In this document: positions 1 through 13,204 of the stretch, piece by piece
How positions within the stretch are numbered: the stretch's first letter is position 1
How the letters are laid out: every line of letters begins with the position of its first letter
Source: Aliiroseovarius halocynthiae
GTDB taxonomy: Bacteria; Pseudomonadota; Alphaproteobacteria; Rhodobacterales; Rhodobacteraceae
DNA: 64,000 nucleotides
Assembly (NCBI RefSeq): GCF_007004645.1
Contig: NZ_ML660021.1
Coordinates: forward strand, 1-64,000
Direction of reading: 5' to 3'
Program-made: the position numbers and the translations under genes
Notes under the pieces: generated by a model
The model's database searches: none
Told to the model about the DNA's origin: nothing
Seen by the model: the letters and a program-made list of their open reading frames with translations, nothing else

Positions 1-2
1 TG

Positions 3-440
3 CTGCGGAAGCTGAAGAAAGCCAATCGCAAGCTAAGCCGTGACGAACTCATTCAGCTTGTCGAAAACAACGATAAGAAGCGCTTCACTCAGTCCGAGGA
101 CGGCTTGTGGATCAGGGCAGCTCAAGGTCACTCAGTCAATGTGGACTTGGGCCTAGAACCGCGACGTCCACCTGACGAGCTATACCACGGCACAGCCAGC
201 GCAAATCTGGATGCAATATTCTCAGACGGACTAAACCCTGGGCGTCGTCATCAAGTTCACCTCTCTTTGGATCCTGACACGGCTAAACGCGTCGGCCAAA
301 GACACGGAAAACCTGTTGTTCTAATAGTCGAGGCGCAACGAATGTTTGAGGACGGGTTTCTGTTCTACTGCGCCGACAACGGCGTTTGGCTCACTGACAA
401 AGTGCCAGCAGTCTACTTGGGATTCGGGAAAACTGCATAG
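3..440 (+). CDS. kptA: RNA 2'-phosphotransferase (Tpt1/KptA family), 5' end outside the window
   Basis: This enzyme transfers an internal RNA 2'-phosphate to NAD+, as in the last step of fungal tRNA splicing; its bacterial role is unclear. The reading frame is open from base 3, so the N-terminus lies before the window; 145 residues are visible. Family hallmarks seen are IRAAQGHSV (the RxxQGHS active-site block), YHGT, the RHQVHLS segment with further NAD+/phosphate contacts, and a C-terminal VWLTDKVPAVYLG. An internal TTG at 105 is not the start, because the conserved DELIQLVENND-type region lies upstream of it in the same frame. The gene lies outside the 49-bp repeat at 622, so it belongs to the host chromosome and not to the mobile element. 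Confidence 0.88.
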   Translation: MRKLKKANRKLSRDELIQLVENNDKKRFTQSEDGLWIRAAQGHSVNVDLGLEPRRPPDELYHGTASANLDAIFSDGLNPGRRHQVHLSLDPDTAKRVGQRHGKPVVLIVEAQRMFEDGFLFYCADNGVWLTDKVPAVYLGFGKTA

Positions 441-621
441 AAACCAGAGCAGCTTGCAAATGGGCAGCTATGAACACTGTTTTTGTCTGAATTCTATCGA
501 GAGTGCCTAAATCTGCGGTGCTCACAAAATTCGCGATGTGCAAAATCCACTGATCTGCGCTAAAAAGCGACAGACTCCTGTCGAAAGAGACAAACTTCGT
601 GTCATCTTTCATTAAGATGAA

Positions 622-670
622 AGTGGTGAGCCGTGAAGGATTCGAACCTTCGACCCACTGATTAAAAGTC
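622..670. repeat. attL: 49-bp direct repeat of the tRNA-Lys 3' half
   Basis: This 49-bp stretch is identical to 13127-13175, which covers the 3' end, T-arm and anticodon region of the intact tRNA-Lys. Sequence diverges immediately on both sides. The 5' half of the tRNA is missing here, so this copy is the duplicated attachment core left by site-specific integration and not a second tRNA gene. It marks the left end of the mobile element. Confidence 0.93.
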
Positions 671-788
671 TCTGGGCTCACTGTTTTCTTGGAATTTCAC
701 CGGGTTGCTTCAAGTATCACATAACCTTGTTATAAATGGATAAAGTGCATATCTTACTTGCATGGGTTTGCATGGGGTTTCAGTTTCC

Positions 789-808
789 GTGGTAGCCTGG
801 TGGTAGCC
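789..808 (+). repeat. tandem GTGGTAGCC pair inside the left end (candidate integrase arm site)
   Basis: The 20-bp sequence GTGGTAGCCTGGTGGTAGCC contains two copies of GTGGTAGCC. The same arrangement, with one base changed, is at 13061-13080 just inside the right end, in the same orientation. Paired direct repeats flanking the two cores of an integrative element are typical of arm-type binding sites for the N-terminal domain of a tyrosine recombinase, or of sites for an excisionase. The function is inferred from position only. Confidence 0.6.
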
Positions 809-824
809 AAGATAGGGGAATGCC

Positions 825-2096
825 ATGACTGACAAGGTGAAGCTAACCAAGCGGTCGGTGGACGCGCTCAAGCCCAGCGAAAAGCGCTTCGTGGCGTGGG
901 ATGCCGAGATTTCCGGCTTTGGTGTCCGTGTGGCTCCCTCTGGGCGGAAAACCTACGTTCTGAAATATCGTGTTGGCGGGGGCCGATCGGGCCGGGTGCG
1001 CTGGGCGGTGATCGGCGCTCATGGAACGCTAACACCGGATCAGGCACGGGAAACCGCGCGGCGCTGGGCATCAGACGTAGCAGCCGGGGGCGATCCGGCG
1101 GGTGCAAAGGCAGAATGGCGCAGCGCGCCCACCGTGAGCGATTTGCTTGACCTGTATCTGACTGACCATGTGGGAAAGAAGAACAAGGGCAGCACCGCCA
1201 AGAATGCTGCCTTGCTGGTGGACAATGTTATCCGCCCAGCGCTGGGGCGGTTTAAGGTCGCTGACGTGACTGTTGGTGATGTGGCACGGTTTCACAACGC
1301 GAACGCAAAGACACCGTATCAGGCCAATCGGGCGCTTGCCGCCTTATCCAAAGCCTTTGGGCTTGCTGAGGTCTGGGGAATGCGTCCGGATGGGTCGAAC
1401 CCGTGTAAAAAGGTTGAACGCTTCAAGGAACAGTCACGCGAACGCTTTTTGTCTGGTGCTGAGTTTCAGCGGCTGGGTGAAGTCCTGGCACAGGCTGAGC
1501 GGGAACCGCTGCGCATTGCCGTTGCCGATGGCAAGGAACGCCTAACAAAGGTGAACCCTCAGGCAATCCGGGCTATCCGCCTGTTGATTTTCACGGGGGC
1601 ACGAGTGGGTGAAATCCTTGGTCTTCGGTGGGAACACATCGACTCGGGCAATGGCCGCGCCAACCTGCCGGATTCCAAGACCGGCAAGAAGGCAATCCAA
1701 CTTCCAGCCCCAGCGCTTGAGGTGTTGGCGGCGGCTGACCGCCCAGAAGATGGCAAAGGCTACGTAATCCGGGGTGGGGATGGATCTGACCCAGAGGTGC
1801 CGCTTGTGAACATCAAGGGGCCGTGGGGTGCAATCCGTCAGACTGCAGGGCTAGATGATGTGCGCCCGCATGATCTTCGTCACGCTTTTGCATCGATCGC
1901 GGTAGCAGGTGGTTTGTCCTTGCCCATGATTGGGGCGCTGCTGGGCCACCGCGAGACCCGCACAACGCAACGCTACGCGCATTTGTCGGATGATCCACAA
2001 CGCGCGGCTGCTGACTTGATTGCTGGCCGGATTTCCGACGCGATGCGCGGGCCGGAAAGCGGCGCTGAGGTGGTTCCACTGCGAAAAGGTCGTTAG
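825..2096 (+). CDS. tyrosine recombinase/integrase of the tRNA-Lys element
   Basis: This site-specific recombinase presumably integrates and excises the element at tRNA-Lys. The 423-residue protein has an N-terminal arm-binding domain of the DUF4102 type (roughly residues 5-90, with the ISGFGVRVAPSGRKTY block), a SAM-like core-binding domain (about 105-200) and the catalytic domain. Catalytic residues are visible as Arg in TGARVGEILGLRW, the HDLRH box, the histidine of LLGHRE and the tyrosine of TQRYAHL, so the enzyme looks intact. The ATG is preceded by AGGGGA at a normal distance. The gene lies 154 bp inside attL and reads into the element, at the end away from the intact tRNA. Confidence 0.95.
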   Translation: MTDKVKLTKRSVDALKPSEKRFVAWDAEISGFGVRVAPSGRKTYVLKYRVGGGRSGRVRWAVIGAHGTLTPDQARETARRWASDVAAGGDPAGAKAEWRSAPTVSDLLDLYLTDHVGKKNKGSTAKNAALLVDNVIRPALGRFKVADVTVGDVARFHNANAKTPYQANRALAALSKAFGLAEVWGMRPDGSNPCKKVERFKEQSRERFLSGAEFQRLGEVLAQAEREPLRIAVADGKERLTKVNPQAIRAIRLLIFTGARVGEILGLRWEHIDSGNGRANLPDSKTGKKAIQLPAPALEVLAAADRPEDGKGYVIRGGDGSDPEVPLVNIKGPWGAIRQTAGLDDVRPHDLRHAFASIAVAGGLSLPMIGALLGHRETRTTQRYAHLSDDPQRAAADLIAGRISDAMRGPESGAEVVPLRKGR

Positions 2097-2132
2097 ACGT
2101 GTTCTTGTGTGTGAGAACATCAAGAGGGCAGC

Positions 2133-2336
2133 ATGAGAAAGCCAAATCCAAGGGAGCAAAAAGTGCTCCGAGGGTTTGCCGGAACCCCTGAGCCATGGGG
2201 GCTCTTTGTCGGTGCGGGCAAGGTTACTTTGGATAGCTTGCTTGCTGAAGGCTGGGTCAGGCCCAACACTGATCCGAATTATCCGGCTGATTACTATGAA
2301 ATCACGCCAGAGGGCGAACAGGCAGCTTACCTTTAA
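2133..2336 (+). CDS. small protein of unknown function
   Basis: This 67-residue reading frame begins 36 bp after the integrase stop, with GAGGGCAGC in front of the ATG as ribosome binding site. The C-terminal half (LLAEGWVRPN through YYEITPEGEQAA) resembles the recognition-helix/wing end of winged-helix proteins, where a GW...YxITxxG pattern is common. No function is assigned. Its position next to the integrase would suit an excision or regulatory accessory factor, but that is inference. Confidence 0.55.
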   Translation: MRKPNPREQKVLRGFAGTPEPWGLFVGAGKVTLDSLLAEGWVRPNTDPNYPADYYEITPEGEQAAYL

Positions 2337-2426
2337 GGTTGGATTCGCGATACAAAAGCCCACCATATCTTGTGCTTGGCGGGTGTCGCATCTGGCTTTT
2401 TGATACTCCTGTATACACCCAAAATT

Positions 2427-2534
2427 CCTGTAACTTTGTAACTTTGTTACGAATGCCCGTAACCGCCAGAAATTACTTGATAAATCAGGTAACAAAAACG
2501 GACGCTACAAGTAACAGCTTTTTGGTTTTGTTAC
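2427..2534. repeat. GTAAC/GTTAC iteron cluster A (candidate replication or regulator site)
   Basis: Seven GTAAC or GTTAC pentamers lie at 2430, 2438, 2446, 2459, 2489, 2511 and 2530. The first three are spaced by exactly 8 bp (GTAACTTT units). Bases 2427-2450 are the exact inverted copy of 12836-12859 in cluster B near the other end of the element. The cluster is in a non-coding stretch. An eighth GTTAC is at 2709. Confidence 0.7.
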
Positions 2535-2690
2535 GTTTTCCGATGCCTTTGTGTTTATCACGGCAACTGGGTGCAATCTGGCGTGGTTTAGGCTCTTTGT
2601 CGGTGCGCCACAAAAAACCACTAAAATCGCCCGTTGACGGCGGTATCGTCCAGAGTTGGCGGCACAAGATGTTGTGTTTCGTTGATTTTC

Positions 2691-2704
2691 GCCCAGCGCT
2701 GGGC
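2691..2704. repeat. perfect 14-bp palindrome GCCCAGCGCTGGGC
   Basis: This is one of two exact copies of the palindrome; the other is at 3654-3667. Both are intergenic and bracket the orphan gene at 2809-3612. Half of the palindrome, GCCCAGCGC, recurs at 14 further places in the element, mostly inside genes. Bases 2337-2808 otherwise hold iteron cluster A and no convincing gene. Confidence 0.85.
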
Positions 2705-2808
2705 GTATGTTACATCTGGGCGGCTAGGTTTAGCGGCTGAACAGTCGGATATCGCACCCGGCCCGCCGCCCGTTTTGCAATGTGCGAGCGCCTGGCGAGG
2801 GCAGCAAG

Positions 2809-3612
2809 ATGCTGAAGTCTATAGACCGTGACCAATCGTTCCTATTAGGCGCAAATGCGCTATATTTGAATCGCTTCAATTTCTTGATCCAGTACGGTGC
2901 CACGCCTCCGGGTTGTCGCGGGCACCTGCGAGGCCTAGACTCAGATGATTTCCATAGTTTTGATAAATTGCGCTCATTCATTTGTTGGCCGGGTCTTATC
3001 GATGATCGGATAGAAGACCCATTTGAGCCATTCGCCAAATTCCCGCAGCACAATGAAGAACTCAAAGCCTTGATCAAGTCGGATGCAGACGTGGCGCGGG
3101 TGGCGCTTAAAGATCTGGCGTTCGATCGAAGTGAGTTGGAGCGCATAGAGCAAGCCAATAAAGATGGCATGGATCGTCTTGACTGGATGCGACCAATTTG
3201 CCGTTGGTCTCCATGTGAGGTAATTTGGACTGCTCGTCATATCGTGGTCGATTACCTCTCTGAGGGAGCAGGTGCTGACGCGGTTGATATCACCAACCTC
3301 AATGGCATATCCGAAGCGCCTGCCAAAGTGGATTGGATGCTGGCGGCAGAGTCTCTTAGCGAATGGAAACGGACACCTGCCAGAAATGGCCCAGCTATCA
3401 AGGAAGCTGTTCGCCGTGTCGTGGATGGCGATGAGGCAAACGCCCATGCCTCTGCGTTACGTCTTGTGCGAGAGTTGGGCTGGGGGCCTAGAGGATCTGC
3501 AAAAAAGGGGCAGATAGTTGCGGCATCCGAAAATGCGGCGAAAGATGCAATATACTTGCCTGCGAGCAAGATATTGAAATCTTTGGAAGACAACGGACTT
3601 TTTCAAAAGTAA
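2809..3612 (+). CDS. hypothetical protein of the mobile element
   Basis: This 267-residue protein is not recognised. The start is the ATG at 2809 (MLKSIDRDQSF), which has GAGGGCAGC in front, the same ribosome binding site as the small gene at 2133; an upstream ATG at 2782 would put that site inside the gene. The N-terminal half is rich in aromatic residues and tryptophan (SFICWPGLIDDRIEDPF, CRWSPCEVIW). The C-terminal third is helical and Lys/Ala-rich. No signal peptide, membrane segment or nucleotide-binding motif is seen. It stands alone between the integrase pair and the alpA-primase operon, with a GCCCAGCGCTGGGC palindrome on each side. Confidence 0.7.
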   Translation: MLKSIDRDQSFLLGANALYLNRFNFLIQYGATPPGCRGHLRGLDSDDFHSFDKLRSFICWPGLIDDRIEDPFEPFAKFPQHNEELKALIKSDADVARVALKDLAFDRSELERIEQANKDGMDRLDWMRPICRWSPCEVIWTARHIVVDYLSEGAGADAVDITNLNGISEAPAKVDWMLAAESLSEWKRTPARNGPAIKEAVRRVVDGDEANAHASALRLVRELGWGPRGSAKKGQIVAASENAAKDAIYLPASKILKSLEDNGLFQK

Positions 3613-3653
3613 CCACATTTTTACTTACTAGTTTCCAAACCTTCCCAAATGAC

Positions 3654-3667
3654 GCCCAGCGCTGGGC
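3654..3667. repeat. perfect 14-bp palindrome GCCCAGCGCTGGGC (second copy)
   Basis: Identical to 2691-2704. It lies 41 bp after the stop of the orphan gene and 45 bp before the AlpA-like start, so it could be part of the control region of the replication operon. Confidence 0.85.
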
Positions 3668-3676
3668 AAGCGCAGA

Positions 3677-3708
3677 TTGCACTCACATTGAAACGAAATG
3701 GAGTGCAA
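3677..3708 (+). promoter_or_regulatory. inverted repeat overlapping the alpA ribosome binding site
   Basis: TTGCACTC (3677-3684) and GAGTGCAA (3701-3708) form an exact 8-bp inverted repeat with a 16-bp spacer. The right arm takes in GAG of the GGAG ribosome binding site of the AlpA-like gene. It could be an operator for an auto-regulator, or a hairpin that hides the ribosome binding site. Neither role is shown by the sequence alone. Confidence 0.5.
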
Positions 3709-3712
3709 GAAT

Positions 3713-3925
3713 ATGCAAGAAAATGATGCTGATAAGCTGCTGACGCGGGCCGAGGTCGAAGCTCGCTTTGGTTTGTCGCGGCGCTTTCTTGAGGTTGCTG
3801 CGGTTAAAGGGGACGGCCCAACAATGGTCCGCTTGGGGCGTGCTGTCCGCTATCGAGTGCAAGATGTGCGGGAATGGATCGAGGCGCGTCGTGTGGCCTC
3901 CACCTCTCAGGAGGTCGGCCAATGA
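3713..3925 (+). CDS. AlpA-like helix-turn-helix regulator
   Basis: This is a 70-residue MerR-like/excisionase-type DNA-binding protein. The LLTRAEVEARFGLSRRFLEVAAVKGDGP helix-turn-helix is followed by VRLGRAVRYRVQDVREWIEARR, the usual wing and closing helix of AlpA/Xis proteins. The start at 3713 has GGAG 9 bp upstream; an ATG at 3698 lacks a suitable site. In satellites of the P4 and PICMI kind, AlpA activates excision or replication genes. Here it is the first gene of a tightly packed operon that includes primase and helicase, which suits that role. Confidence 0.85.
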   Translation: MQENDADKLLTRAEVEARFGLSRRFLEVAAVKGDGPTMVRLGRAVRYRVQDVREWIEARRVASTSQEVGQ

Positions 3926-4128
3926 AGCGCGAAGTTGAAGGCTGGGACGGGGTTCCGCTGCGCAAGCACGTCGAAAACGCCCAACAAACTGCGACTGATG
4001 CACAACAGGTGGCCAGTGATGCGCGAGACCTAGCGGAGGTATGCTGCGATGAGCAAGCCACCCTTTCGGCCCGGTTGGGAGAGATCGAGCGTCGCCTTGC
4101 CGCCTTTGAAGGGGGGAGCGAGGCATGA
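3922..4128 (+). CDS. small coiled-coil protein
   Basis: This 68-residue protein starts at an ATG that overlaps the AlpA stop (ATGA), which indicates translational coupling. From about residue 18 it is Ala/Gln/Glu-rich with a heptad-like pattern (ENAQQTATDAQQVASDARDLAE) and ends in a second helix (LSARLGEIERRLAAFEGG). No family is recognised. Coupling to the primase genes suggests an accessory replication role or a structural small protein. Confidence 0.65.
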   Translation: MKREVEGWDGVPLRKHVENAQQTATDAQQVASDARDLAEVCCDEQATLSARLGEIERRLAAFEGGSEA

Positions 4129-4382
4129 ATGCGAACCGTAAACCTGCAGAGATTCTGAAGGCTCCAAACGGTTGCCTGACGTTTTCGCGGGCTGACCAAG
4201 CCCAGCACGCCCGTCTCGACCTGTCACGACATGACCTCGCCACTCTGGAAAAGGTGGGTTTTGCCGTTGATGCTTTGAACCGCTGGCATGCGTTCGTGCA
4301 ATCTGTCGAGCAAGTTGAAAGCCTTATCAGCAGATATGAGCAAGCCACCCTTCCGGTTCTCGGGGGTGCGCAAGATGACTGA
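4125..4382 (+). CDS. small hypothetical protein of the replication operon
   Basis: This 85-residue helical protein starts at an ATG overlapping the previous stop (ATGA). No motif is recognised; the middle (ADQAQHARLDLSRHDLATLEKVGFAVDALNRW) looks like a helical pair. Its end overlaps the primase start by 8 bp, so the series alpA, coiled-coil, this gene, primase and helicase is read as one operon. Confidence 0.65.
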   Translation: MNANRKPAEILKAPNGCLTFSRADQAQHARLDLSRHDLATLEKVGFAVDALNRWHAFVQSVEQVESLISRYEQATLPVLGGAQDD

Positions 4383-5286
4383 GGCAAGAAATGTGGTGCA
4401 GGCGCTGGGCGGCGAGTGGAAAGGCAACACCGGACTCGCACCCTGCCCGATATGCCAGTCAGAAGGGCGGCGGGATCAGCGTGGCTTGAGCGTGAAGGAT
4501 TCGGGCGGGCGGACGCTGTTGACGTGTCATAAGTCAGGTTGCCCAGCGCCTGATATCTTCACGGAATTGCGCGGGCGCGGGATTGTGCAGGGCAATGGGC
4601 ATAGCATCCAGCGTTCACCCGCTGATATCCAACGCGAAAAAGCGGAGCGCCGCAAAAAGCGAGAAAGGACGTGGGCCTATTGCTATGACTTGTTCTCACA
4701 TGCAGTGCCCATAACGGGAACCCTGGCTGAGGTGTACCTAGAAGGGCGCGGAATTAAAGCGCAATGGCACAAGATGCGCCATACACTGCGCTATCACCCA
4801 GCACTGCCGCATACTGGAACAAAGCAAAAGCTGCCCGCCATGATCGCGCGTCTGCGCGGGCCAGATGGCCGCGCTACTGGTCTGCACCGCACGTATCTGA
4901 AGCCCGATGGATCGGGCAAAGCTGATCTGCCGGGCGGCGCTAAGCTTATGCTTGGAAGCTGCGGGGGTAGTGCAGTGCGCTTCGGGCCAGATCGCCCGGT
5001 GATCGCGCTTGCTGAGGGAATAGAGACCGCTCTGAGCATTGGTGTTGCGTCGCGGCTGACTGTTTGGGCCACATTAAGCACAAGCGGGATGAAAGGTTTG
5101 ATCCTGCCCCCACCACCAGTTGCTGAGGTTGTGGTTATCGCGGCTGACCATGACTCGGCGGGGTTACTGGCGGCTGAAGAAACGGCCTTGAGGTTGGAAG
5201 CCGAGGGCCGTGCGGTCTCAATCATCACACCCCAAGCAGAAGGTATGGACTTCAATGATGTGCTCCGAGGTGGTGCACATGGGTAA
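4375..5286 (+). CDS. zinc-finger/Toprim primase
   Basis: This is a 303-residue DNA primase-like protein that would prime replication of the excised element. The N-terminal zinc finger uses Cys24, Cys27, Cys51 and Cys56 (CPIC ... CHKSGC). The C-terminal Toprim-type domain (from about residue 205) shows IALAEGIETALSIG with its glutamate, then VVIAADHDSAG with the acidic pair, and DFNDVL near the end. This is the arrangement of virE/DUF7146-Toprim primases of phages and plasmids. The start at 4375 follows GGGGG and overlaps the previous gene; upstream ATGs would lie inside that gene. It overlaps the helicase gene by 8 bp. Confidence 0.88.
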   Translation: MTEARNVVQALGGEWKGNTGLAPCPICQSEGRRDQRGLSVKDSGGRTLLTCHKSGCPAPDIFTELRGRGIVQGNGHSIQRSPADIQREKAERRKKRERTWAYCYDLFSHAVPITGTLAEVYLEGRGIKAQWHKMRHTLRYHPALPHTGTKQKLPAMIARLRGPDGRATGLHRTYLKPDGSGKADLPGGAKLMLGSCGGSAVRFGPDRPVIALAEGIETALSIGVASRLTVWATLSTSGMKGLILPPPPVAEVVVIAADHDSAGLLAAEETALRLEAEGRAVSIITPQAEGMDFNDVLRGGAHG

Positions 5287-7135
5287 GGAAGAAATCAAAA
5301 ACGCGATCGATGGCGCAGTAGAGGACGCCAAGTCGAAGGCCAATTCGGGCGCTGGGCGGAACGGAAAGGCCCAGCGCAAAAAGACCAAACGGCCCTTTCC
5401 GTTCAAGGTGGACGAAAATGGCGTTTGGCGACGGGTTGAACGTGAAACCGATGATGGCAGCAAGCGCACAACTTGGCAGCGCTGGGGCAGTGAATTGCGC
5501 GTCATGGCACTCACCCGGAATGATGAGGGCGAAGACTGGGGGCGGCTACTTGAAGTCGTGGACCGTGACGGGGTACGCCACCTCTGGGCAATGCCAGCGG
5601 CGCTTCTGGCTGGATCTGGTGATCCCCTGAGAGGGGAATTGTTTCGCTTGGGTTTTGAGCTTGAGCCGCGCAGGGATGCCAAGGCATGGCTGTTGGAATA
5701 TCTGATATCAGCAGACCCTGAAAAGCGCGCACGGTGTGTTTCCCGCGTTGGATGGCACGGCGAAACATTTGTGCTGCCAGATGGTCCTATAGGCGCAGCC
5801 GAGGGCGGTGAAGAGGTCATTCTGCAATCGGCAGAAAAGCCTGATCATGCCTTTAATGTCGCGGGCACCCTCGAAGAATGGAAAACACAGGTCGCAGCCC
5901 CGGCGCTGGGCAATTCGCGCTTGGTGCTGGCCATATCTGCGGCATTCGCCGCGCCGTTGTTGGCGCTACTGGGCGATGAGGGCGGCGGGTTTCATTTTCG
6001 GGGTGCATCATCCTCCGGCAAGTCAACGGCTCTGACGGTTGCTGGATCGGTCTGGGGCGGTGGCGGGACGCGCGGATTTGTCCGACAATGGCGGGCCACG
6101 GATAACGCGCTGGAAAGCGTAGCTGCGCTGTCATGTGACGCCCTTCTGTGCCTCGATGAGCTGTCACAGGTTGATGCCAAAGCCGCAGGGTCTGCTGCCT
6201 ACATGCTTGCCAATGGCAAAGGTAAGGCCCGCGCTGGGCGCGAGGGTCAAGCTCGCAAAGTGCTGGAATGGCGTGTCCTGTTTCTGTCCAATGGCGAAAT
6301 CGCCCTTGAGGACAAGATCAAAGAAGGTGGCGGGCGCATTGCGGCTGGAATGGAGGTAAGGGTTGTCGATCTACGGGCAGATGCAGGCGCAGGTATGGGG
6401 ATCTTCGAAGACACCCATGAGGCCGCTGACCCAGCCAGTTTCGCCCAGCGCCTAAAGAAGGGTGCAAATAGCTTCTACGGGACGCCGGGGCGCGCTTTTT
6501 TGGCTGGGTTGGTCAATGACTTGGCGGGACACCGTGAAGGGCTGGCAGCGCTTCGTAAGTCCTTCATGGATACCTCTTTGCCACAGGGATCTGATGGGCA
6601 AGTGCGCCGCGTGGCGGATCGCTTCGCTCTGGTGGCTGCGGCGGGTGAGTTGGCAACAAATATCGGTTTGACGGGGTGGCCCGCTGGTGCTGCGCTCAGC
6701 GCCACCCAGCGCTGCTTTCAAGACTGGTTGTCCGAGCGTGGCGGGGTTGGGTCTAGCGAGGTGGCAGAAGCCAAGCGACGCATAGCTGAGGTGCTGCAGC
6801 TACATGGTGCCAGTCGGTTCCAGAAATGGGCGAAAAGCAGCTCTGATCGGATGGTGATCACCAATCGAATGGGGTTCGTGAAAATCGAAGGCGATCCAGA
6901 TATTGAGGAAACAGAAAGCACCTACTTTTTCATGGTGCAGCCCCTCAAACAGGAATTGGCGGGCCTCGATTTTCGGACAGTGGTTTCGGAGCTAGTCGCC
7001 TCTGGCGTTATTGTCGATCAGGATGGCAAGCCAAACAAGGTGTTCCATGTGTCCAGTGGTGGTGGAAAGCACCGCCTATATCAGATCGATCGCGACAAGC
7101 TGAACGCAGAACTTGGAACGGACGATGCCTCGTAA
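5279..7135 (+). CDS. DUF927-domain helicase-like ATPase
   Basis: This 618-residue protein carries a DUF927 domain (about residues 60-400), a family of superfamily III-like helicases usually paired with a Toprim primase in satellites, prophages and plasmids. The Walker A is RGASSSGKST in FHFRGASSSGKSTALTVAG, and the Walker B is DALLCLDEL. An SF3-like sensor asparagine is visible in VLFLSNGE. The N-terminal 35 residues are Lys-rich and probably flexible. The C-terminal part (from about 480) reads like a winged domain ending in VFHVSSGGGKHRLYQID. The start at 5279 has GAGGTGG upstream and overlaps the primase stop. With the primase it forms a complete replication module. Confidence 0.88.
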   Translation: MGKEEIKNAIDGAVEDAKSKANSGAGRNGKAQRKKTKRPFPFKVDENGVWRRVERETDDGSKRTTWQRWGSELRVMALTRNDEGEDWGRLLEVVDRDGVRHLWAMPAALLAGSGDPLRGELFRLGFELEPRRDAKAWLLEYLISADPEKRARCVSRVGWHGETFVLPDGPIGAAEGGEEVILQSAEKPDHAFNVAGTLEEWKTQVAAPALGNSRLVLAISAAFAAPLLALLGDEGGGFHFRGASSSGKSTALTVAGSVWGGGGTRGFVRQWRATDNALESVAALSCDALLCLDELSQVDAKAAGSAAYMLANGKGKARAGREGQARKVLEWRVLFLSNGEIALEDKIKEGGGRIAAGMEVRVVDLRADAGAGMGIFEDTHEAADPASFAQRLKKGANSFYGTPGRAFLAGLVNDLAGHREGLAALRKSFMDTSLPQGSDGQVRRVADRFALVAAAGELATNIGLTGWPAGAALSATQRCFQDWLSERGGVGSSEVAEAKRRIAEVLQLHGASRFQKWAKSSSDRMVITNRMGFVKIEGDPDIEETESTYFFMVQPLKQELAGLDFRTVVSELVASGVIVDQDGKPNKVFHVSSGGGKHRLYQIDRDKLNAELGTDDAS

Positions 7136-7349
7136 GCCTGACTGGGACGCGCTGGGCAAGCTTTTCGCTCCGTCCCTTGATAGCCAGCCCGGCGCCTCAG
7201 AGGGTGACACTGTGAGGTATCTTGGTGAACCCATGCCGAAATGGCTTGCCCTAGATCTTATGCGAGAGCGGGCTGCTATCTATGAGTATGAGGCTGGCAT
7301 GTCACGTGATGAGGCAGAGGCTAAAGCGCGGAAGGCGCTAGAAAAATAA
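7125..7349 (+). CDS. small protein closing the replication operon
   Basis: This 74-residue protein overlaps the end of the DUF927 gene by 11 bp; the ATG at 7125 (MPRKPDWD) is the likely start. The second half (MRERAAIYEYEAGMSRDEAEAKARKALEK) is a helix of a type often found at the C-termini of small phage and plasmid proteins. Function unknown. It is followed directly by a hairpin terminator. Confidence 0.65.
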   Translation: MPRKPDWDALGKLFAPSLDSQPGASEGDTVRYLGEPMPKWLALDLMRERAAIYEYEAGMSRDEAEAKARKALEK

Positions 7350-7384
7350 AGCCCCGCAGGACTTGGTATCGTCTTAGCGGGGCT
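7350..7384 (+). terminator. hairpin terminator after the replication operon
   Basis: AGCCCCGC (7350-7357) pairs with GCGGGGCT (7377-7384) across a 19-base loop. It starts right after the last stop codon of the operon. There is no clear T-run, so efficiency is uncertain. The terminator at 12149 uses nearly the same stem. Confidence 0.6.
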
Positions 7385-7905
7385 ACCACTGGTGTGGTTT
7401 TGAGGCTCAACGCTGGGCGCGAGCTGACAAGGAACATATAGGGTAGAAAACCTATAACGTCAACTTAACGCAGCGCTATAGTGCGGAATATCAGGCGATC
7501 ATGCAGTTCGATCCCACATGGTTGTGGGCCCGATCCTACTAAGGCAGGGCGTACAACCATTTCGCAGTAAGCGGTGCAAAACACCCTACTCACAAGGTCT
7601 TCCAGCTTCAAAATACCAAGCGTATATTGGCGGTACGCCAATTTGGAAGCGAATCTGGGCAGAATCGGCCCATTGCGGACGTTCGCACAGTTTTGGTCAG
7701 CTTCCCGAAAGCTGCCATTGCGATCACATGTGTCAAATACAACGTGAGGCGGGCTCTGTGGACAAACACTGATGGATCCTCCTAACAACTGGAGAGAAGT
7801 TGGGTTTTAGGTCATGAACTTTCCATTCAGTTCTCACTCACGCGTGGTAGACTGGAAGCCGACGTGGTTGACGGCAATATCTAATGTTATGATCGTTTGA
7901 GAGAT
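7385..7905. other. non-coding stretch before the TPR-nuclease gene
   Basis: No convincing gene is seen in these 520 bp. Two overlapping open frames (7518-7772 on plus, 7465-7788 on minus) lack good ribosome binding sites and family features. The only element motif is a weak variant, CGCTGGGCG, at 7411-7419. The region probably holds the promoter of the TPR-nuclease gene and perhaps the left junction of a cargo insertion. Confidence 0.4.
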
Positions 7906-10107
7906 ATGAGCGAAACACCTGAAACATCTGAGAAATACGCTGAAGAAGTTGCGGACGGACGTAAGCTCGAAATCTCGATCCAAATGGACACACGGTCCGG
8001 TCGTTTTTTCGGGCGCCATGATGCAGTGGAGGATAATGAGCTTTCTCGAGACATCGCCGCGAATGTCTTCAAGTCCATCGGCTCCATTGGCCAAAACGAG
8101 GCACGGCTCGCCGAGGAGCTCCAAGCGAAATGCGACGCATACGATCACGAGGAAGCTGCCAGGCTTGCTTTATCGGACGAGGCGCATGTTGCCCTTATGT
8201 TTGCAGAAGGACGCAATCTATTCCACGCAGCTTTGAACGTCGACCACACCCGCGTTAGTGAAGAGCACCGAGAGGAGTTTCTGAAGTTCATCGTCGGTTT
8301 AGCATCCAAGGTTGGCATTTTTGCACCTGTATATCAGCAGACCAAAGAGTTGCTTGCATCGCTCGAAGATCACGACAACGACTTTAAGCATTCCCTAACC
8401 AACATGCTCGGGCTAGCTGAAGCAGAGCGTGGCGCACCAGAAGCTGCGCTTAGAATTTGGCAGAATTTGCTTTCGGAGCATGATGGTATCCGCCCGGGCG
8501 AGCGCGGCTGGATCTACCGTAACATGGGATTTGTCTACCTTCAGATCGATCATCCACGATCTCAAAAACGCGCAGTTGAATGCTTTCAGCAAGCGATAGA
8601 TGCCTTTCTTGAAGCTGGCGATAAGAATGGCGCCATTGATACTTCAGAAAAGCTTGCCAAGCTTCTAGCGAAATCTAGCGCAGGCGAGGCTTTTGATCAG
8701 TTTGATCGAATGCTCGAGCTGTGCAGCAATCACGGGGCTCTAGACGAAGAAATTACAGCCACCGTTCATTATGCAAAAGCTAAACGATTGCTGGACGCCG
8801 GTCGGCACCACGAATGCCAATCCTCTGCGCTTGAAGCTGCGAGAATACGGCGCGGGCTGCATGGCGCAGAAGAGGGCTTGATTTCGAGTCTTCACCTTGC
8901 GGCTATCGCTGCAAACTTTTGCGGAGATGACGAAACGAAAGAAAAATGTGTCGATGAGGCGGCTGAACTGGAACGCATGACAGGCTCTCGACATTTCGCG
9001 TTTGGCAGACGGATAACGAGCTTGATGGAGAGTTTTGATAGATCAGAAGCCGACGCGCTGATTGGGGAAGCAAGAGAAAGCGGGGACACAGAACTGATAG
9101 CCGCCTCTGAGACCGCTGCGGTTCTTGGAGACTCCAAACTCAGCAATGTCGATAAACTTGCGCGTTTTGAAGCGCTTCATACTGAGTTGGAGAAGCTGAG
9201 AACAAAAACCGAGACACTCAAGCCAATAAGAATGGGTGTCGCCGTATGCTTCAAGGAATTGGACGATTTTGAGAATGCAGCGCGATGGTTTCGCAAAATA
9301 TTAGATGACAATCCCTTAGATGTTCAAGCAGCAACATCACTTGTCGACGCTCTCTGGAAAGCCGATCAATGGGGTGACGCTGCAACCGAGTTAGCAGAGC
9401 AGATCGCTAGATTTGGGGAGCAACCAGGTTATGTGTTCGCTTATGGGCGTTCGCTGTTTGAAGCGGGTGATTTGAGCGGGGCGGTTCAGGCTCTGACCAA
9501 ATCCATGAAACTTGCCTCGACAGAATCCGATATTCATCAAACAGCTACGGAGCTCCGTGAACGAGCGCTGCAACTCGGCGGCGTTATGCCGTCAAAGCCC
9601 ATTGATTTGTCGCCACCCTCCCATGTCACTCTGGAACAGGTTGATGCCGCCTTGCGCGAGTTTGGCAATTTCGTTTCCTCTGCCAAACGTATGGAGTTTT
9701 GGCGACGAAAGAAAAAAGAAAAGGGTCACAACTGGGTTCAGAATCCTGAGCGCTTTGGTCAGACTTTGCTGCACACCTTCCTTAAAGCTCGCTTTCTCCA
9801 CAGCGTGCAAATTTTCGAGGAGTTGAATGTTGGGGCAGGCAGACTGGATGTTCTAGCACAGTTCGCTGGTGGCTTGCGGGTGATAATTGAGCTCAAGATA
9901 TGCGGTGGCGGATACTCCACGACATATGCGCAAAGTGGTGATCAGCAAATACAGCACTACATGGAGAACGAAGGCGTCCACATCGGGTTTCTGATGACGT
10001 TTGATGGTCGTATTCGAAAAAAAGGAGAGCTGCTAGTAGCAAACACCGGCTCTCACCACACGATTAGAGAAGTGCTGATCGATATGCGTTCAACGGTTAA
10101 ATCGTGA
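7906..10107 (+). CDS. TPR protein with C-terminal PD-(D/E)XK nuclease domain (candidate defence gene)
   Basis: This 733-residue protein is unlike its neighbours. The middle (about residues 130-570) is a run of helical pairs typical of tetratricopeptide repeats, for example GMAYLQIDHP-type and ENAARWFRKILDDNPLDVQAATSLVDALWK segments. The last 145 residues form a PD-(D/E)XK nuclease fold: GAGRLDVLAQ supplies the aspartate, VIIELKI the ExK, and DQQIQHYMENEGVHIGFLM the following helix and strand, much as in PDDEXK_9-type domains. ATG at 7906 is preferred to a TTG at 7897. The gene stands alone with its own promoter region. Single-gene TPR or repeat proteins with nuclease domains on satellites and islands are often anti-phage systems. 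That role is inference. Confidence 0.8.
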   Translation: MSETPETSEKYAEEVADGRKLEISIQMDTRSGRFFGRHDAVEDNELSRDIAANVFKSIGSIGQNEARLAEELQAKCDAYDHEEAARLALSDEAHVALMFAEGRNLFHAALNVDHTRVSEEHREEFLKFIVGLASKVGIFAPVYQQTKELLASLEDHDNDFKHSLTNMLGLAEAERGAPEAALRIWQNLLSEHDGIRPGERGWIYRNMGFVYLQIDHPRSQKRAVECFQQAIDAFLEAGDKNGAIDTSEKLAKLLAKSSAGEAFDQFDRMLELCSNHGALDEEITATVHYAKAKRLLDAGRHHECQSSALEAARIRRGLHGAEEGLISSLHLAAIAANFCGDDETKEKCVDEAAELERMTGSRHFAFGRRITSLMESFDRSEADALIGEARESGDTELIAASETAAVLGDSKLSNVDKLARFEALHTELEKLRTKTETLKPIRMGVAVCFKELDDFENAARWFRKILDDNPLDVQAATSLVDALWKADQWGDAATELAEQIARFGEQPGYVFAYGRSLFEAGDLSGAVQALTKSMKLASTESDIHQTATELRERALQLGGVMPSKPIDLSPPSHVTLEQVDAALREFGNFVSSAKRMEFWRRKKKEKGHNWVQNPERFGQTLLHTFLKARFLHSVQIFEELNVGAGRLDVLAQFAGGLRVIIELKICGGGYSTTYAQSGDQQIQHYMENEGVHIGFLMTFDGRIRKKGELLVANTGSHHTIREVLIDMRSTVKS

Positions 10108-10437
10108 ACTGCTAGATCAATTGGTATCGGGGATCAGTAACTGTCCGTCATCAAGGTCTATGGGCCTTCGTGCTGCGTGATCTAGCGGGGCGATAGGCTC
10201 ATCTATTTCATGAGCTAACGCAACGTGTAGTCGCGCCGGATGACCGCAATCCGCCCCGTTGAAAAACAACGTATTGCCACTAAAAGAACACCGCTCTGGT
10301 CTGAAGTGCTGCGATGTGTGAGGTCTCAGCACTCCCGGCCAAAGCTAAGTTGCACTGTTTGATGATTCGAACACTTGTCGCTCAGTCTTAGTAGGGCTGG
10401 ACGGCAATGCTACTAAGAATACGGTGGCAATCATGCG
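10108..10437. other. intergenic stretch, possible small decayed gene on minus
   Basis: A 71-codon frame on the minus strand (10117-10332) has protein-like composition at its end but starts with a GTG lacking a proper ribosome binding site and has a stop just upstream. It may be the remnant of a gene. The stretch otherwise holds the 3' sides of the two convergent genes. The 9-mer GCCCAGCGC reappears at 10444, just after this stretch. Confidence 0.3.
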
Positions 10438-10842
10438 CTATAGGCCCAGCGCTACTTTAATGCAGTCAAGAATTTTGGCAAACTCCACTTCGGAAATGCG
10501 GGGTGTCAAATACTTCCGCTTTCCGGTCTGGTCGCGATCGGTCCTGAATAAATCGAGGCGATCAAACCCAACGGTTGCAAGCATATCTGCCTTAACCCAG
10601 CAATTGGTTTCTGGGAAATGCGGCAATTCATATGGCAGTTCAATCTGACAGTGGTGTGGGGCAATCCGATCTGGTGGCGTCGTACTGAGAGGAACAACGG
10701 TTATCAACCCACTGCGATGGCGCAGCCGAGGCGATATTGCTATGACTGGTCGCCGCTTGACCATTTCAGGCGGTTTGAAGCCGCCCTTGCTATAGTCACA
10801 CAACAAAACGGTGCGCTGATTTACGTCATACTTTATCGGCAA
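10438..10842 (-). CDS. PemK/MazF-like toxin
   Basis: This 134-residue protein resembles the PemK/MazF endoribonuclease fold: RTVLLCDYS starts the SH3-like barrel, EMVKRRPVIAISP is the conserved KRRPxxVIS strand, and SGLITVVPLST is the central strand. It ends in a helix (EVEFAKILDCIKVAL). The start is a TTG one base after the stop of the XRE gene, so the two are translationally linked, in the antitoxin-first order. If active it would cleave mRNA or rRNA in the cytoplasm and its partner would neutralise it. Whether this pair works as an addiction module or only as a regulator is not shown. Confidence 0.75.
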   Translation of the reverse strand: MPIKYDVNQRTVLLCDYSKGGFKPPEMVKRRPVIAISPRLRHRSGLITVVPLSTTPPDRIAPHHCQIELPYELPHFPETNCWVKADMLATVGFDRLDLFRTDRDQTGKRKYLTPRISEVEFAKILDCIKVALGL

Positions 10843-10843
10843 G

Positions 10844-11089
10844 TTAGGTGTCCGTCTGTTTGAGCGCTACACCCAGTCCGTTGGCAGTGTCACCGCTTTC
10901 GAGGAACTGAATTCCGTTTGCAACCAAAGCGCCGCGAATAGCCTCAATGGTGCCGTGTCTGCCGGAAAGCTTGCCTTGGGTGGAGTCCAAGCGCTGTACA
11001 GTCGGGTAACTGATTCCGCTTTCTGCCGCCAAATCATTTGCAGTCCAACCAAGCAATGAACGTGCCGCCCGTATCTGTTCACCTGTCAT
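10844..11089 (-). CDS. XRE-family helix-turn-helix regulator, probable antitoxin/repressor
   Basis: This 81-residue protein has a full XRE helix-turn-helix (TGEQIRAARSLLGWTANDLAAESGISYPTVQRLD) followed by a short tail (FLESGDTANGLGVAL), a form common in alphaproteobacterial prophages. The start at 11089 has GAGG eight bases upstream; a longer frame from 11149 would run through the operator region. It is divergent from the gene at 11192. Two similar palindromes in the shared upstream region are likely its binding sites. Confidence 0.82.
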   Translation of the reverse strand: MTGEQIRAARSLLGWTANDLAAESGISYPTVQRLDSTQGKLSGRHGTIEAIRGALVANGIQFLESGDTANGLGVALKQTDT

Positions 11090-11121
11090 CCGCGGCCTCA
11101 ATAGGTAATCTTGCTTTAATG

Positions 11122-11170
11122 ATAGATTATCTATTGAAAGATAGCCCATCCTTTGTTATAGATATTCTAT
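11122..11170. promoter_or_regulatory. twin operator palindromes in the divergent promoter
   Basis: ATAGATTATCTAT (11122-11134) and ATAGATATTCTAT (11158-11170) share the pattern ATAGAtWWTCTAT and lie 36 bp apart, in the AT-rich gap between the XRE gene (minus) and the gene at 11192 (plus). Such spacing and symmetry fit two repressor dimers on the same face region of DNA. The XRE protein is the natural candidate for binding. Confidence 0.65.
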
Positions 11171-11191
11171 CAAAGAAGAAAGGGCAACCCG

Positions 11192-11797
11192 ATGACACTG
11201 AACCGTTCCGAAATTATGAAAGCCGCTTGGAAGGCCACGCAGGAAAGAATGGACACCTTTGGATACGCGCGCCGCCAGCTGCGCAGCGTGTTTGCGTATT
11301 GCCTACGCCGCGCATGGGCAGAAGCAAAAGCCGCCGCAGCGCTATTGGCTCGATCTGCCGCAAGCCTTTGGGCTGAGTTGTTGGAATTGGAAAACCGGGA
11401 CCGCCTTGGTTTTCGGGGTATCGAACGCTTGAGCCAGCTTCGCCGCGCCTATGAAGGTGCAAAGGCTCGAGAAGCTGAGGCCCAGGCTCAAGTTGACCAC
11501 GATGAGAAGCGCGAGCTGATCCAATCAGCGGGTGGCCGCTTTGCCTCTGTGACGTTCATCAAGAAAGATGGCAGTACCTGCGTGATGCTTAATCAGCCTG
11601 CTAAGCTGAAATACCATGTCAAAGGCGATGAGGCTACGCCCAGCGCTCGCAAAGCGATTGAAACACGCAAGGCCCGCCATCCTCACTTGCTGTCTGTGTG
11701 GGATGCGGACAAAGCTGCGCCTCGCTCGGTCAATCTTTCGACGGTCACAGAAATCCGTCTGGATGGTTTGGCACACGTGTTTGAGGTGGCGGCATGA
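11192..11797 (+). CDS. phage/plasmid-type protein of unknown function
   Basis: This 201-residue protein begins with a helical MTLNRSEIMKAAWKATQERMDTFG ... LRRAWAEAKAAAA region seen in many small plasmid and phage proteins, followed by a charged helix and, from about residue 110, a beta-rich domain (RFASVTFIKKDGSTCVMLN). It ends in HLLSVWDADKAAPRSVNLSTVTEIRLDG, an SH3-like end often found in plasmid proteins. No enzyme motif is visible. AAAGGG precedes the ATG. It is the first gene after the XRE-controlled promoter and overlaps the next by 4 bp. Confidence 0.7.
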   Translation: MTLNRSEIMKAAWKATQERMDTFGYARRQLRSVFAYCLRRAWAEAKAAAALLARSAASLWAELLELENRDRLGFRGIERLSQLRRAYEGAKAREAEAQAQVDHDEKRELIQSAGGRFASVTFIKKDGSTCVMLNQPAKLKYHVKGDEATPSARKAIETRKARHPHLLSVWDADKAAPRSVNLSTVTEIRLDGLAHVFEVAA

Positions 11798-12123
11798 CGA
11801 ATACCATTGAGACGCCACAGATCGCGAACAAAGAGAGCTGCATGATTGAACGGACGCAAATTGATCAGTTGAGCGTAGCGGACGCTCGCCGCTTTTGCGA
11901 AGTTATCATTGAAGCACTCGATGCTGGTGTGTGCGATCAAGTGTCGGATTTACTTCTGCCGCTCATCTGGATGATTGAACAATCCTTGATGGAGCGCCCG
12001 GTGCAGGATCTTCAAACTCTTGCAACAAAGGTTTGGGTTGTCTGTCGCACTGTCTCAGAATCCGAACCGGATATGGTTGCGCTGTGGTCTGACGTTGAAG
12101 GAATACTCAGCGCCTCAGCCTGA
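11794..12123 (+). CDS. small acidic hypothetical protein
   Basis: This 109-residue protein starts at an ATGA overlap with the preceding gene. It is acidic and helical (DARRFCEVIIEALDAGVCDQVSDLLLPLIWMIEQSL) with no recognised motif. Translational coupling and the terminator that follows make it the second and last gene of a two-gene unit under the divergent promoter. Confidence 0.65.
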   Translation: MTNTIETPQIANKESCMIERTQIDQLSVADARRFCEVIIEALDAGVCDQVSDLLLPLIWMIEQSLMERPVQDLQTLATKVWVVCRTVSESEPDMVALWSDVEGILSASA

Positions 12124-12148
12124 CCCTTCCATGATTCATGGACCATGT

Positions 12149-12179
12149 AAGCCCCGCGCACTCATGTGTGACGGGGCTT
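12149..12179 (+). terminator. hairpin terminator
   Basis: AAGCCCCG (12149-12156) and CGGGGCTT (12172-12179) form a perfect 8-bp stem 25 bp after the last gene of the element. The stem is nearly the same as that at 7350-7384. Confidence 0.65.
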
Positions 12180-12751
12180 GCTCACACCCCGCGCCCCAGC
12201 ATGGGTAGCACTTATGTCGCGCGGCGGTGTTGATCCCTAAAATGCGCGCGCAATGGCCACCAGAGACGCCATGAAAGGGCTGAGGCCCCGCAAATCTATG
12301 CTGGTAGGCTAAGTGGTGCGCAGTTTCTTTGGGCGCTTATACCTTAGCGCAGAGGCTTTGGCAGGCCGCAGGTCAAGCAAGGGGGGGGCGGTCAAAAGTT
12401 CATAACCACCCGATCCCTAGACCCGCATCCCCCTCAGTCGGAGATTTTTTTCCTGCAAGAGAAGAATTTCAAAATGGGCCAGTTTTTAGGTCTTGTGAGA
12501 GGCTATTTGTTGGCCTCTGAGCGACGGCTCAAAACTGGGTCTGACCTCGATGTTTTTGGGCAGATCAACGCAGTGTCGCCCAACTGCGGGCTTGCACAGA
12601 TCGAGGCAGATAGAAGGGGAATAAGTGCCATTTGACGTGGTATTTTTTCCTGTTTGTGACCTTGGTCCAAAACGGTGCAAAACTACACAGAAAACAGCCT
12701 TTTCCAGATCCTCGAAGAACAGGCGTTCTCAATAAAATCAGTATCGTAGGC
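12180..12751. other. gene-poor right end of the element
   Basis: No convincing gene is seen in this stretch. A G-run of eight bases is at about 12380. A 63-codon plus-strand frame at 12329-12520 has no ribosome binding site or family features. The stretch is transcriptionally downstream of both terminators and may hold a small RNA or a packaging/replication signal, but nothing specific can be read. Confidence 0.35.
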
Positions 12752-12859
12752 GTAACAGATCAAAATTTCTGTTACTTTCTTTGTTACCAAATAAAGAGGT
12801 AATAAGTAAGTAAAATCAATTAGTTATATATATAAGTAACAAAGTTACAAAGTTACAGG
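12752..12859. repeat. GTAAC/GTTAC iteron cluster B
   Basis: Six GTAAC or GTTAC pentamers lie at 12752, 12771, 12783, 12836, 12844 and 12852 in a very AT-rich stretch (TATATATATA at its centre). The span from first to last pentamer, 105 bp, equals that of cluster A. Bases 12836-12859 are the exact inverted copy of 2427-2450. AT-rich DNA beside iterons is the usual build of a replication origin, so this is the better origin candidate of the two. Confidence 0.7.
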
Positions 12860-13060
12860 GGGTTTTGCAGCCTTGCGCCCAGCGCATGGCAACTTCGAAG
12901 GTTTTGCCCCAATCGCCTTCAGCATTCATGGAAAAGTGCGAAATCGCAAATTTTGCGCGACGGGTTCCCCGTCTGCACCCAATGGCGCGCCGAGGGTTGA
13001 TTCTATAGCCCTATGCGCCCAGCGCCCGTCTGAACGTAAAGCGGCGTGAAATTCCAATTG

Positions 13061-13080
13061 GTGGTAGCCCGGTGGTAGCC
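13061..13080 (+). repeat. tandem GTGGTAGCC pair inside the right end
   Basis: GTGGTAGCCCGGTGGTAGCC lies 46 bp inside attR and differs by one base from 789-808 at the left end. It is a candidate arm-type integrase or excisionase site. Confidence 0.6.
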
Positions 13081-13126
13081 ACGCAAAAGGTGGCAATGGT
13101 TCAAAATCAGCTAAGTCATTGATTTC

Positions 13127-13175
13127 AGTGGTGAGCCGTGAAGGATTCGAACCTTCGACCCACTGATTAAAAGTC
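13127..13175. repeat. attR: 49-bp direct repeat within tRNA-Lys
   Basis: Identical to 622-670. It covers the tRNA-Lys 3' end to the anticodon loop, so integration kept the tRNA gene whole and left the duplicate at the far end. This fixes the element's right boundary. Confidence 0.93.
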
Positions 13176-13204
13176 AGTTGCTCTACCAACTGAGCTAACG
13201 GCCC
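13129..13204 (-). tRNA. tRNA-Lys (anticodon UUU)
   Basis: This 76-nt tRNA has a complete cloverleaf on the minus strand: acceptor GGGCCGT pairs with ACGGCTC (one G-U), the anticodon loop is CTTTTAA giving UUU, the T-loop TTCGAATC is present, and CCA is encoded. Its 3' half serves as the attachment site of the element to its left. Confidence 0.97.

Follow-up and report, generated by a model that had tools for sequence, protein, structure and literature searches.

The 64,000-nucleotide stretch of the Aliiroseovarius halocynthiae genome considered here (contig NZ_ML660021.1, positions 1 to 64,000; hereafter the window) contains a 12.5-kb mobile element, which is located at a tRNA-Lys gene between 49-bp exact repeats at 622 and 13127 and is densely populated with one 9-mer, GCCCAGCGC (reverse complement GCGCTGGGC; both strands were counted). 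The word is enriched in the element, conserved in part of the element's relatives, strand-biased in the host chromosome, and both clustered and directed in one group of phages. We consider it rather probable that GCGCTGGGC is the Chi sequence of the host lineage (Rhodobacterales), i.e., the word attenuating the helicase-nuclease AddAB, and that the element carries this sequence densely in both orientations. The assignment is made because the chromosomal copies are strand-biased, because the host encodes AddA and AddB, and because the pattern observed in phages resembles that described by Bobay, Touchon and Rocha (Bobay et al., 2013; PMC3784561).

Over-representation of the word in the element

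The window holds 23 oriented matches of GCCCAGCGC/GCGCTGGGC against 1.5 expected, a number reached in none of 100 dinucleotide shuffles. Nineteen of these oriented copies occupy 17 places of the element (998-13025), two of the places being 14-bp palindromes (GCCCAGCGCTGGGC), and the other four, at 16880, 19137, 43045 and 52973, are all that was found in the rest of the 64-kb window, which amounts to 50.8 kb on the right-hand side. The initial annotation had reported, by eye, 16 places in the element, about four copies outside it and three 8-base matches (1709, 5479 and 6705); all 16 places proved correct, one further place (998) had been overlooked, the copies outside number exactly four, and the three 8-base matches are present. 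With the element taken as 1-13130, GCCCAGCGC is its most over-represented 9-mer (19 copies vs 0.52 expected, order-2 Markov model) and scores highest among the 6-11-letter words listed in this ranking, so that the excess stands in the Markov-corrected count, which had been set beforehand as a check on the claim. The two orientations are balanced in the element (9 vs 10), the copies being found between genes as well as, in both orientations, within genes running one way.

There is no copy in 7158-10443, and the probability of finding no place in that given stretch is 0.006; nevertheless, a gap this long appears somewhere in 10% of random placements of 17 places. Thus the gap described earlier as absence of the word from the cargo is real but statistically weak, and avoidance of the cargo as a strong signal is not supported by the random placements.

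The word in relatives of the element

Eight relatives of the element were retrieved with its DUF927 protein as the query, identity in the best segment being 56-91%, and their 9-mers were ranked on element-centred stretches. The same 9-mer ranks top in five of the eight, with 15 copies in L009, 29 in L010 (Thalassovita litoralis), 7 in L012, 10 in L013 and 13 in L014, and is third among the 9-mers (15 vs 0.64 expected) in L204, which is the L009 locus differently cut. Within approximate element limits, four of these five word-rich relatives have a density of 0.9-2.8 copies per kb, while their flanks hold 0-2 copies; L010 has its 29 copies inside and none in 11.6 kb of flank.

In the primase-DUF927 region L010, at 72% nucleotide identity, keeps 7 of the 8 sites of the window, as compared with 18% of equally GC-rich 9-mers (P 4e-5), and sites are also kept in L009 (4/8, P 0.04) and L012 (4/7, P 0.005). 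L014 has six sites of its own in this region, of which one is shared with the window. Since the sites are kept at 72% identity, and since L014 has its own six sites in spite of background sharing, the word is conserved among near relatives and occurs at other positions in far ones. Judging by these sequence comparisons, it behaves as a selected signal of mobile elements. Conservation in relatives, whose failure the initial annotation had named as a refutation, is thus seen in five of the eight and is lacking in the other three (0-3 copies). Two distant DUF927 loci carry strongly repeated words of their own, namely CGGACCAGT (11 copies in 14 kb) in L194 and TCCCACGGT (8 copies) in L195. The search of viral contigs with the DUF927 protein gave no match, and the viral relatives of the element's primase (8 loci, L283-L290) have 0-3 copies of the word each.

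The many copies within or close to the element's replication genes, together with the sharing of the word by five relatives having the same DUF927 protein, could also point to a binding site of an element protein (the primase, the DUF927 protein or the helix-turn-helix (HTH) regulator), for which the alpha protein of phage P4, which binds iterons, would be a model. However, the word is scattered over 12 kb and forms no array, it occurs in phages with another initiator and beside another helicase (see below), it is strand-biased in the host, and it is scarce in the viral primase relatives and in distant DUF927 loci, while another repeat family of the element, TAACTTTGT/ACAAAGTTA, would be a better iteron candidate. 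We hold such a binding site to be very unlikely; in particular, the clustered, initiator-specific origin array by which an element-specific iteron would be recognized was not found, and an iteron of this kind is unlikely.

Strand bias in the host chromosome

In the host genome 215 copies were counted in 3.39 Mb, as against 80 of the reversed word, and all 20 other genomes of the genus exceed their control. With the leading strand assigned by G>C skew, strand bias was determined from fully listed contigs or directly read sequence, the place lists of G000 C2, G014 C1, G336 and G372 being left aside (G000 is the genome of the window and G014 a second genome of the genus). On contig C1 of G000, 60 of the 65 copies at 0-1.016 Mb occupy the leading strand. 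Away from the terminus (36 stretches of G000 and 12 of G014), 68 copies were leading and 10 lagging, with 21.8 leading copies expected under an order-3 model, and a score combining excess and bias put GCGCTGGGC third among the 9-mers of the same stretches, behind two words of the GGGCAGGG family. It is reversed on passing the origin (7/2 to the left, 10/1 to the right), which was placed on contig C5 by parS and the second skew flip, the skew flip of the terminus being near 1.32 Mb. None of the 27 one-letter variants matches both the count and the bias of GCGCTGGGC (28/4), the nearest being GCGTTGGGC (15/4) and GCGCTGCGC (27/11).

Given that the coding strand reads GCGCTGGGC at 48 of 60 scored host copies, in frame 0 at 38 of them, a codon or composition effect had to be considered, with GCG-CTG-GGC (Ala-Leu-Gly) as a frequent codon string. 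Yet the synonymous Ala-Leu-Gly 9-mers are less strand-biased than GCGCTGGGC, and the ratio of leading to lagging copies, 40:1 in leading-strand genes, is still 11:8 in lagging-strand genes, where the coding sense favours the lagging strand; the replication strand therefore matters beyond the coding strand. Moreover, the element has copies in both orientations inside one-way genes as well as palindromes, and between the nearer relatives its copies are retained more often than words of equal GC content. A coding artefact as the whole cause is rejected by the synonymous 9-mers and the 11:8 ratio, and a codon or composition effect in general seems highly improbable.

The KOPS-like word of the genus (KOPS, FtsK-orienting polar sequences) is GGGCAGGG, with 130 leading and 7 lagging copies in 800 kb. 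Among the Chi words of other bacteria that were tried in this host, that of Caulobacter, GCGGTGGT, is weakly biased (43/24 lead/lag away from the terminus) and is missing from the element, AGCGG of Bacillus subtilis is hardly biased (937 lead/815 lag), and neither these two nor GCTGGTGG of Escherichia coli is as strand-biased as GCGCTGGGC; all three were rejected as the host Chi. A cluster of 27 copies in 150 kb among the matches listed for G014 contig C1 (0-157 kb), mixed in orientation (14 and 13), is a candidate origin region or integrated element.

The host encodes AddA (1233 bits) and AddB (E 7e-262). As AddB was found in 103 of the 115 genomes of the class, its presence is uninformative with respect to the word excess, and of the 12 genomes without an AddB match only one, G373, has enough copies to judge. 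In the 64 of 115 genomes having at least 20 control words the median ratio of motif to the reversed-word control, which is not codon-matched, is 2.1; the ratio lies above 1.5 in 46 of them and below 1 in 11, including four below 0.8. Pseudovibrio also looks strand-biased, and so do, outside the element, the larger Thalassovita contigs (C1 9:1, C2 0:5, C3 3:0); the Thalassovita genome has no overall excess (99 copies vs 108 of the control), 29 of the 99 copies belonging to the element.

Phages, prophages and a probable second satellite

On contig C32 of the Thalassovita genome (G022), six copies were found in 6.5 kb around a helicase of another family (phrog_2373), accompanied by integrase-like and primase-like open reading frames (ORFs) recognized by eye; by its gene content, this contig is probably a second satellite. 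Six terminase matches were obtained in the genus, and five prophage loci in four genomes were examined. In the G020 prophage, 9 copies fall within 4.7 kb that span an O-like replication gene, and the prophage of G010 has 12 copies in 40 kb (2.2 expected), 11 of which point in one direction. The L210 prophage was found independently via its terminase.

A scan of viral sequences for the palindrome listed at least 120 stretches, and the three highest-scoring of those listed are phages. The two of these that were annotated agree in their lambda-like gene order (methyltransferase, replication initiator, Holliday junction resolvase, late activator), the initiator being of phrog_270 and O-like in one of them. 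The two initiator proteins then retrieved 16 phage loci on 14 distinct, interrelated contigs, all of which have 5-10 copies within 3.5 kb of the initiator gene, where 0.2-0.4 are expected. Non-palindromic copies point toward the terminase in 89 cases and away from it in 20 (64 and 20 near the initiator gene). Ten of the contigs showed the terminase downstream; in the remaining four it was not reached. Two loci of IMG/VR with a lower GC content, L086 (43%) and L159 (42%), have 5 and 4 copies, with palindromes taken as two, vs 0.02-0.03 expected, at similar positions, and perhaps represent another phage group using the word.

Being dispersed, present in both orientations and tied to mobile DNA, the word might also serve as a packaging or uptake signal, read by a helper terminase, a gene transfer agent or the competence machinery. 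However, packaging would leave unexplained the leading-strand bias in the host as well as the scarcity of the word (0-2 copies) in three of the five prophage loci of the genus, and uptake words, to our knowledge, are not strand-polar. We find a signal of this kind scarcely credible.

In the initial annotation the word was proposed to be tied to the mobile element. It does look selected in the relatives, but it also occurs in the host chromosome, in phages and in the probable second satellite. Because it is strand-biased in the host, present in phages and found beside another helicase, it is most likely read by the host machinery and not by the element's primase or DUF927 protein or by a helper terminase.

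Proposed role of the word as Chi

Chi halts the helicase-nuclease RecBCD only if it is met from the 3' side. For Caulobacter AddAB, the action of Chi is reported to be orientation-dependent (PMC5443536). Properly oriented GCGCTGGGC would switch the AddAB of Rhodobacterales from degrading a DNA end to initiating RecA-dependent recombination. As the word fills the replication backbone of the element in both orientations, AddAB would soon meet a copy whichever end of a broken or linear element it enters, and the words might also help to build RecA-dependent multimers of the element. A nuclease moving from a broken fork toward the origin, or from a cut end near the terminase toward the initiator, would meet GCGCTGGGC in the same sense. 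We infer that AddAB recognizes the word, that the element is protected or recombined as a result, and that selection acts on this effect. Among the four functions guessed in the initial annotation, namely packaging, replication, uptake and protection, the last is the best supported.

Several observations weigh against this assignment. Three of the eight relatives, L011, L015 and L016, carry 3, 1 and 0 copies, respectively, though their hosts exceed the control (L016 may be an element remnant, as no integrase-sized ORF was seen upstream of its DUF927 gene in the ORF listing); 11 more distant DUF927 loci of the family have only 0-3 copies each; and where two relatives share 61-63% identity, 0-2 sites are retained, no more than the background. 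The AddB-negative genome G373 (92% complete) is still in excess (100 vs 24), the distant genome G381 has an overall excess while being unbiased on its contig C1 (9:9), and Caulobacter, which also has AddAB, possesses a different Chi, GCGGTGGT (PMC5443536). In the host itself the word is sparse, its 215 copies in 3.39 Mb being far below the density of the element; by strand bias alone, in 800 kb including the terminus, it is only 21st among the 9-mers, and in the same 800 kb its leading count is not raised under a maximal-order Markov model (28 vs 26.6). As for mobile DNA, the word orientations are equal in the satellite, unlike in the phages, the other three of the five prophage loci have 0, 2 and 1 copies, the counts in the 14 interrelated phage contigs are not independent, and this phage group was first noticed for its richness in the word, at least four of its 14 contigs being also in the palindrome list.

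The behaviour of the word at the replication terminus belongs to the same side. No leading and six lagging copies were found in G000 C1 at 1.016-1.575 Mb, and none and eight, respectively, in 320 kb sampled from G014 C1 at ~1.32-1.98 Mb; the near-terminus stretches of the comparison that gave 68/10 elsewhere gave 0/10, with terminus limits that were chosen after inspection of the data. Most of the few terminus copies are paired, 0.1-15 kb apart. E. coli Chi, by contrast, is present at the terminus (18 leading and 8 lagging copies in 200 kb, as compared with 13/7 in 100 kb of the arms), with strands assigned from what we take to be the positions of ori and dif.

These findings, i.e., leading-strand bias, copies near the origin and no leading copy seen at the terminus of two genomes, along with the fact that E. 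coli Chi is not excluded from its terminus, suit a polar host signal other than Chi, which would act in segregation, condensation, replication or nucleoid occlusion, would be purged near the terminus, and would be exploited by phages and satellites for replication or for staying with the nucleoid. Nevertheless, clustering of the phage copies at the initiator and their direction to the terminase is the reported behaviour of Chi in lambdoids (PMC3784561), and the FtsK-orienting word here is GGGCAGGG, which stays dense and leading-strand-biased at the terminus. The density and bias expected of KOPS, kept or highest toward dif, were not observed for GCGCTGGGC; as GGGCAGGG fills that role and the two words show opposite trends at the terminus, GCGCTGGGC was rejected as KOPS. 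On balance, a polar signal other than Chi appears unlikely. A broader version, in which GCGCTGGGC is a new chromosome-polarity signal, neither KOPS nor plain Chi, perhaps present in many Alphaproteobacteria and taken over by satellites and lambda-like phages, we regard as conceivable and doubtful. Equally doubtful is the rule that such a signal would follow, being fixed on the leading strand up to the origin and forbidden in the leading orientation within ~300 kb of the terminus. If GCGCTGGGC is Chi, it would, on the same doubtful view, be purged where forks meet, which would leave AddAB free to degrade over-replicated DNA of the terminus, while mobile elements would be armed with the word.

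Genes and other repeats of the element

The features of the element and the positions of all word copies are collected in Table 1. The TPR cargo protein, whose C-terminal part had been labelled a nuclease in the initial annotation, gave no PADLOC match. A PemK/MazF-like toxin gene lies beside an HTH gene (weak HTH match) at 10438-11149 on the minus strand, and the two are probably a toxin-antitoxin pair of the element. Scans against Pfam and PHROGs recognized neither a recombinase nor a nuclease inhibitor, nor any capsid-size or helper-interaction gene, among the proteins scanned, and none of the window proteins covered by these scans matched a capsid or a terminase large subunit. A second repeat family, TAACTTTGT/ACAAAGTTACA, consists of an 11-mer in four copies, two each at 2430-2452 and 12838-12857; L009 carries related words, and these repeats are candidate origin iterons or arm sites.

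Table 1. Features of the element at tRNA-Lys and copies of the 9-mer (positions in the window; for word copies the strand is that of GCCCAGCGC; a dot stands for no strand)
Feature	Position	Strand	Evidence
att (attachment) repeat left, 49-bp exact copy of tRNA-Lys 3' end	622..670	.	repeat comparison
Tyrosine integrase	825..2096	+	PF00589 5e-19; phrog_1
Word copy in integrase gene	998..1006	-	word count
Word copy in integrase gene	1061..1069	-	word count
Word copy in integrase gene	1234..1242	+	word count
14-bp palindrome GCCCAGCGCTGGGC, two copies	2691..2704	.	word count
14-bp palindrome, two copies	3654..3667	.	word count
HTH_17/AlpA-like excisionase-regulator	3698..3925	+	Pfam, PHROGs
Toprim_3 primase (DUF7146)	4378..5286	+	Pfam; phrog_510
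Word copy in primase gene, kept in L010	4402..4410	-	word count, alignment
Word copy in primase gene, kept in L009	4541..4549	+	word count, alignment
DUF927 protein	5282..7135	+	Pfam; phrog_1139 (DNA primase), phrog_8841 (primase/helicase)
Word copy in DUF927 gene, kept in L010	5349..5357	-	word count, alignment
Word copy in DUF927 gene, kept in L009 and L010	5369..5377	+	word count, alignment
Word copy in DUF927 gene, kept in L010	5903..5911	-	word count, alignment
Word copy in DUF927 gene, kept in L010	6231..6239	-	word count, alignment
Word copy in DUF927 gene, kept in L009 and L010	6443..6451	+	word count, alignment
Word copy in small ORF after DUF927, kept in L009 and L010	7149..7157	-	word count, alignment
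TPR-repeat cargo gene without the word	7897..10107	+	Pfam, word count
Word copy at 3' end of PemK/MazF-like toxin gene	10444..10452	+	word count
Word copy in ORF 11192-11797	11638..11646	+	word count
Word copy near right end	12877..12885	+	word count
Word copy 110 bp from right att	13017..13025	+	word count
att repeat right, overlaps tRNA-Lys(ttt) 13129-13204	13127..13175	.	repeat comparison, tRNA call

Comparison with known systems

P4-like satellites combine an integrase at a tRNA gene, an AlpA-like regulator, a primase with a helicase-type protein, and short cargo genes. The element has the same features and differs from them in its replication protein, which is of the DUF927 family, and in that no capsid-size or helper-interaction gene was recognized among the proteins scanned.

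The closest precedent for the distribution of the word is found in the lambdoid phages of E. coli, in which Chi is reported to be over-represented in the recombinase-less (Rec-minus) phages and to lie near the replication origin and between the replication genes and the terminase, but not in the cargo (Bobay et al., 2013; PMC3784561). In both cases an oriented non-palindromic host word with strand-biased host copies is enriched in mobile DNA (PMC3784561) and is concentrated at replication genes and before the terminase, the likeness of the phages studied here being one of word placement. The differences are another 9-mer, AddAB as the host enzyme, both orientations in the elements, and the density, which amounts to 0.9-2.8 copies per kb in four relatives of the element vs 0.2 per kb in the Rec-minus lambdoids (PMC3784561).

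Caulobacter, also an Alphaproteobacterium with AddAB, has a Chi word active in one orientation and strand-biased (PMC5443536); it is nevertheless a different word, GCGGTGGT, with the weak bias and the absence from the element noted above. KOPS and Architecture Imparting Sequences are, like GCGCTGGGC, strand-biased words of the leading strands, but they increase toward the terminus, where leading-strand GCGCTGGGC vanishes; in the same source Chi is set apart as a strand-biased word without such an increase (PMC5993296). One genome paper applied the B. subtilis word AGCGG to a Paracoccus (PMC3925955), and no experimentally supported Chi of Rhodobacterales was found in the literature searched, which likewise held nothing on satellites and Chi and nothing of this kind on satellites and DUF927.

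Chi-rich mobile elements as such are known, whereas the word, the bacterial order, the AddAB setting, the satellites and the density are new as far as our searches reach. The assignment would raise the question of why the word is kept out of the replication terminus, and an exact 9-mer with a predicted orientation makes its recognition by AddAB in Rhodobacterales directly testable. If the assignment is true, the borrowing of host Chi, known from lambdoid phages, would also apply to small satellites that carry a primase, in which the word is up to fourteen times as dense.

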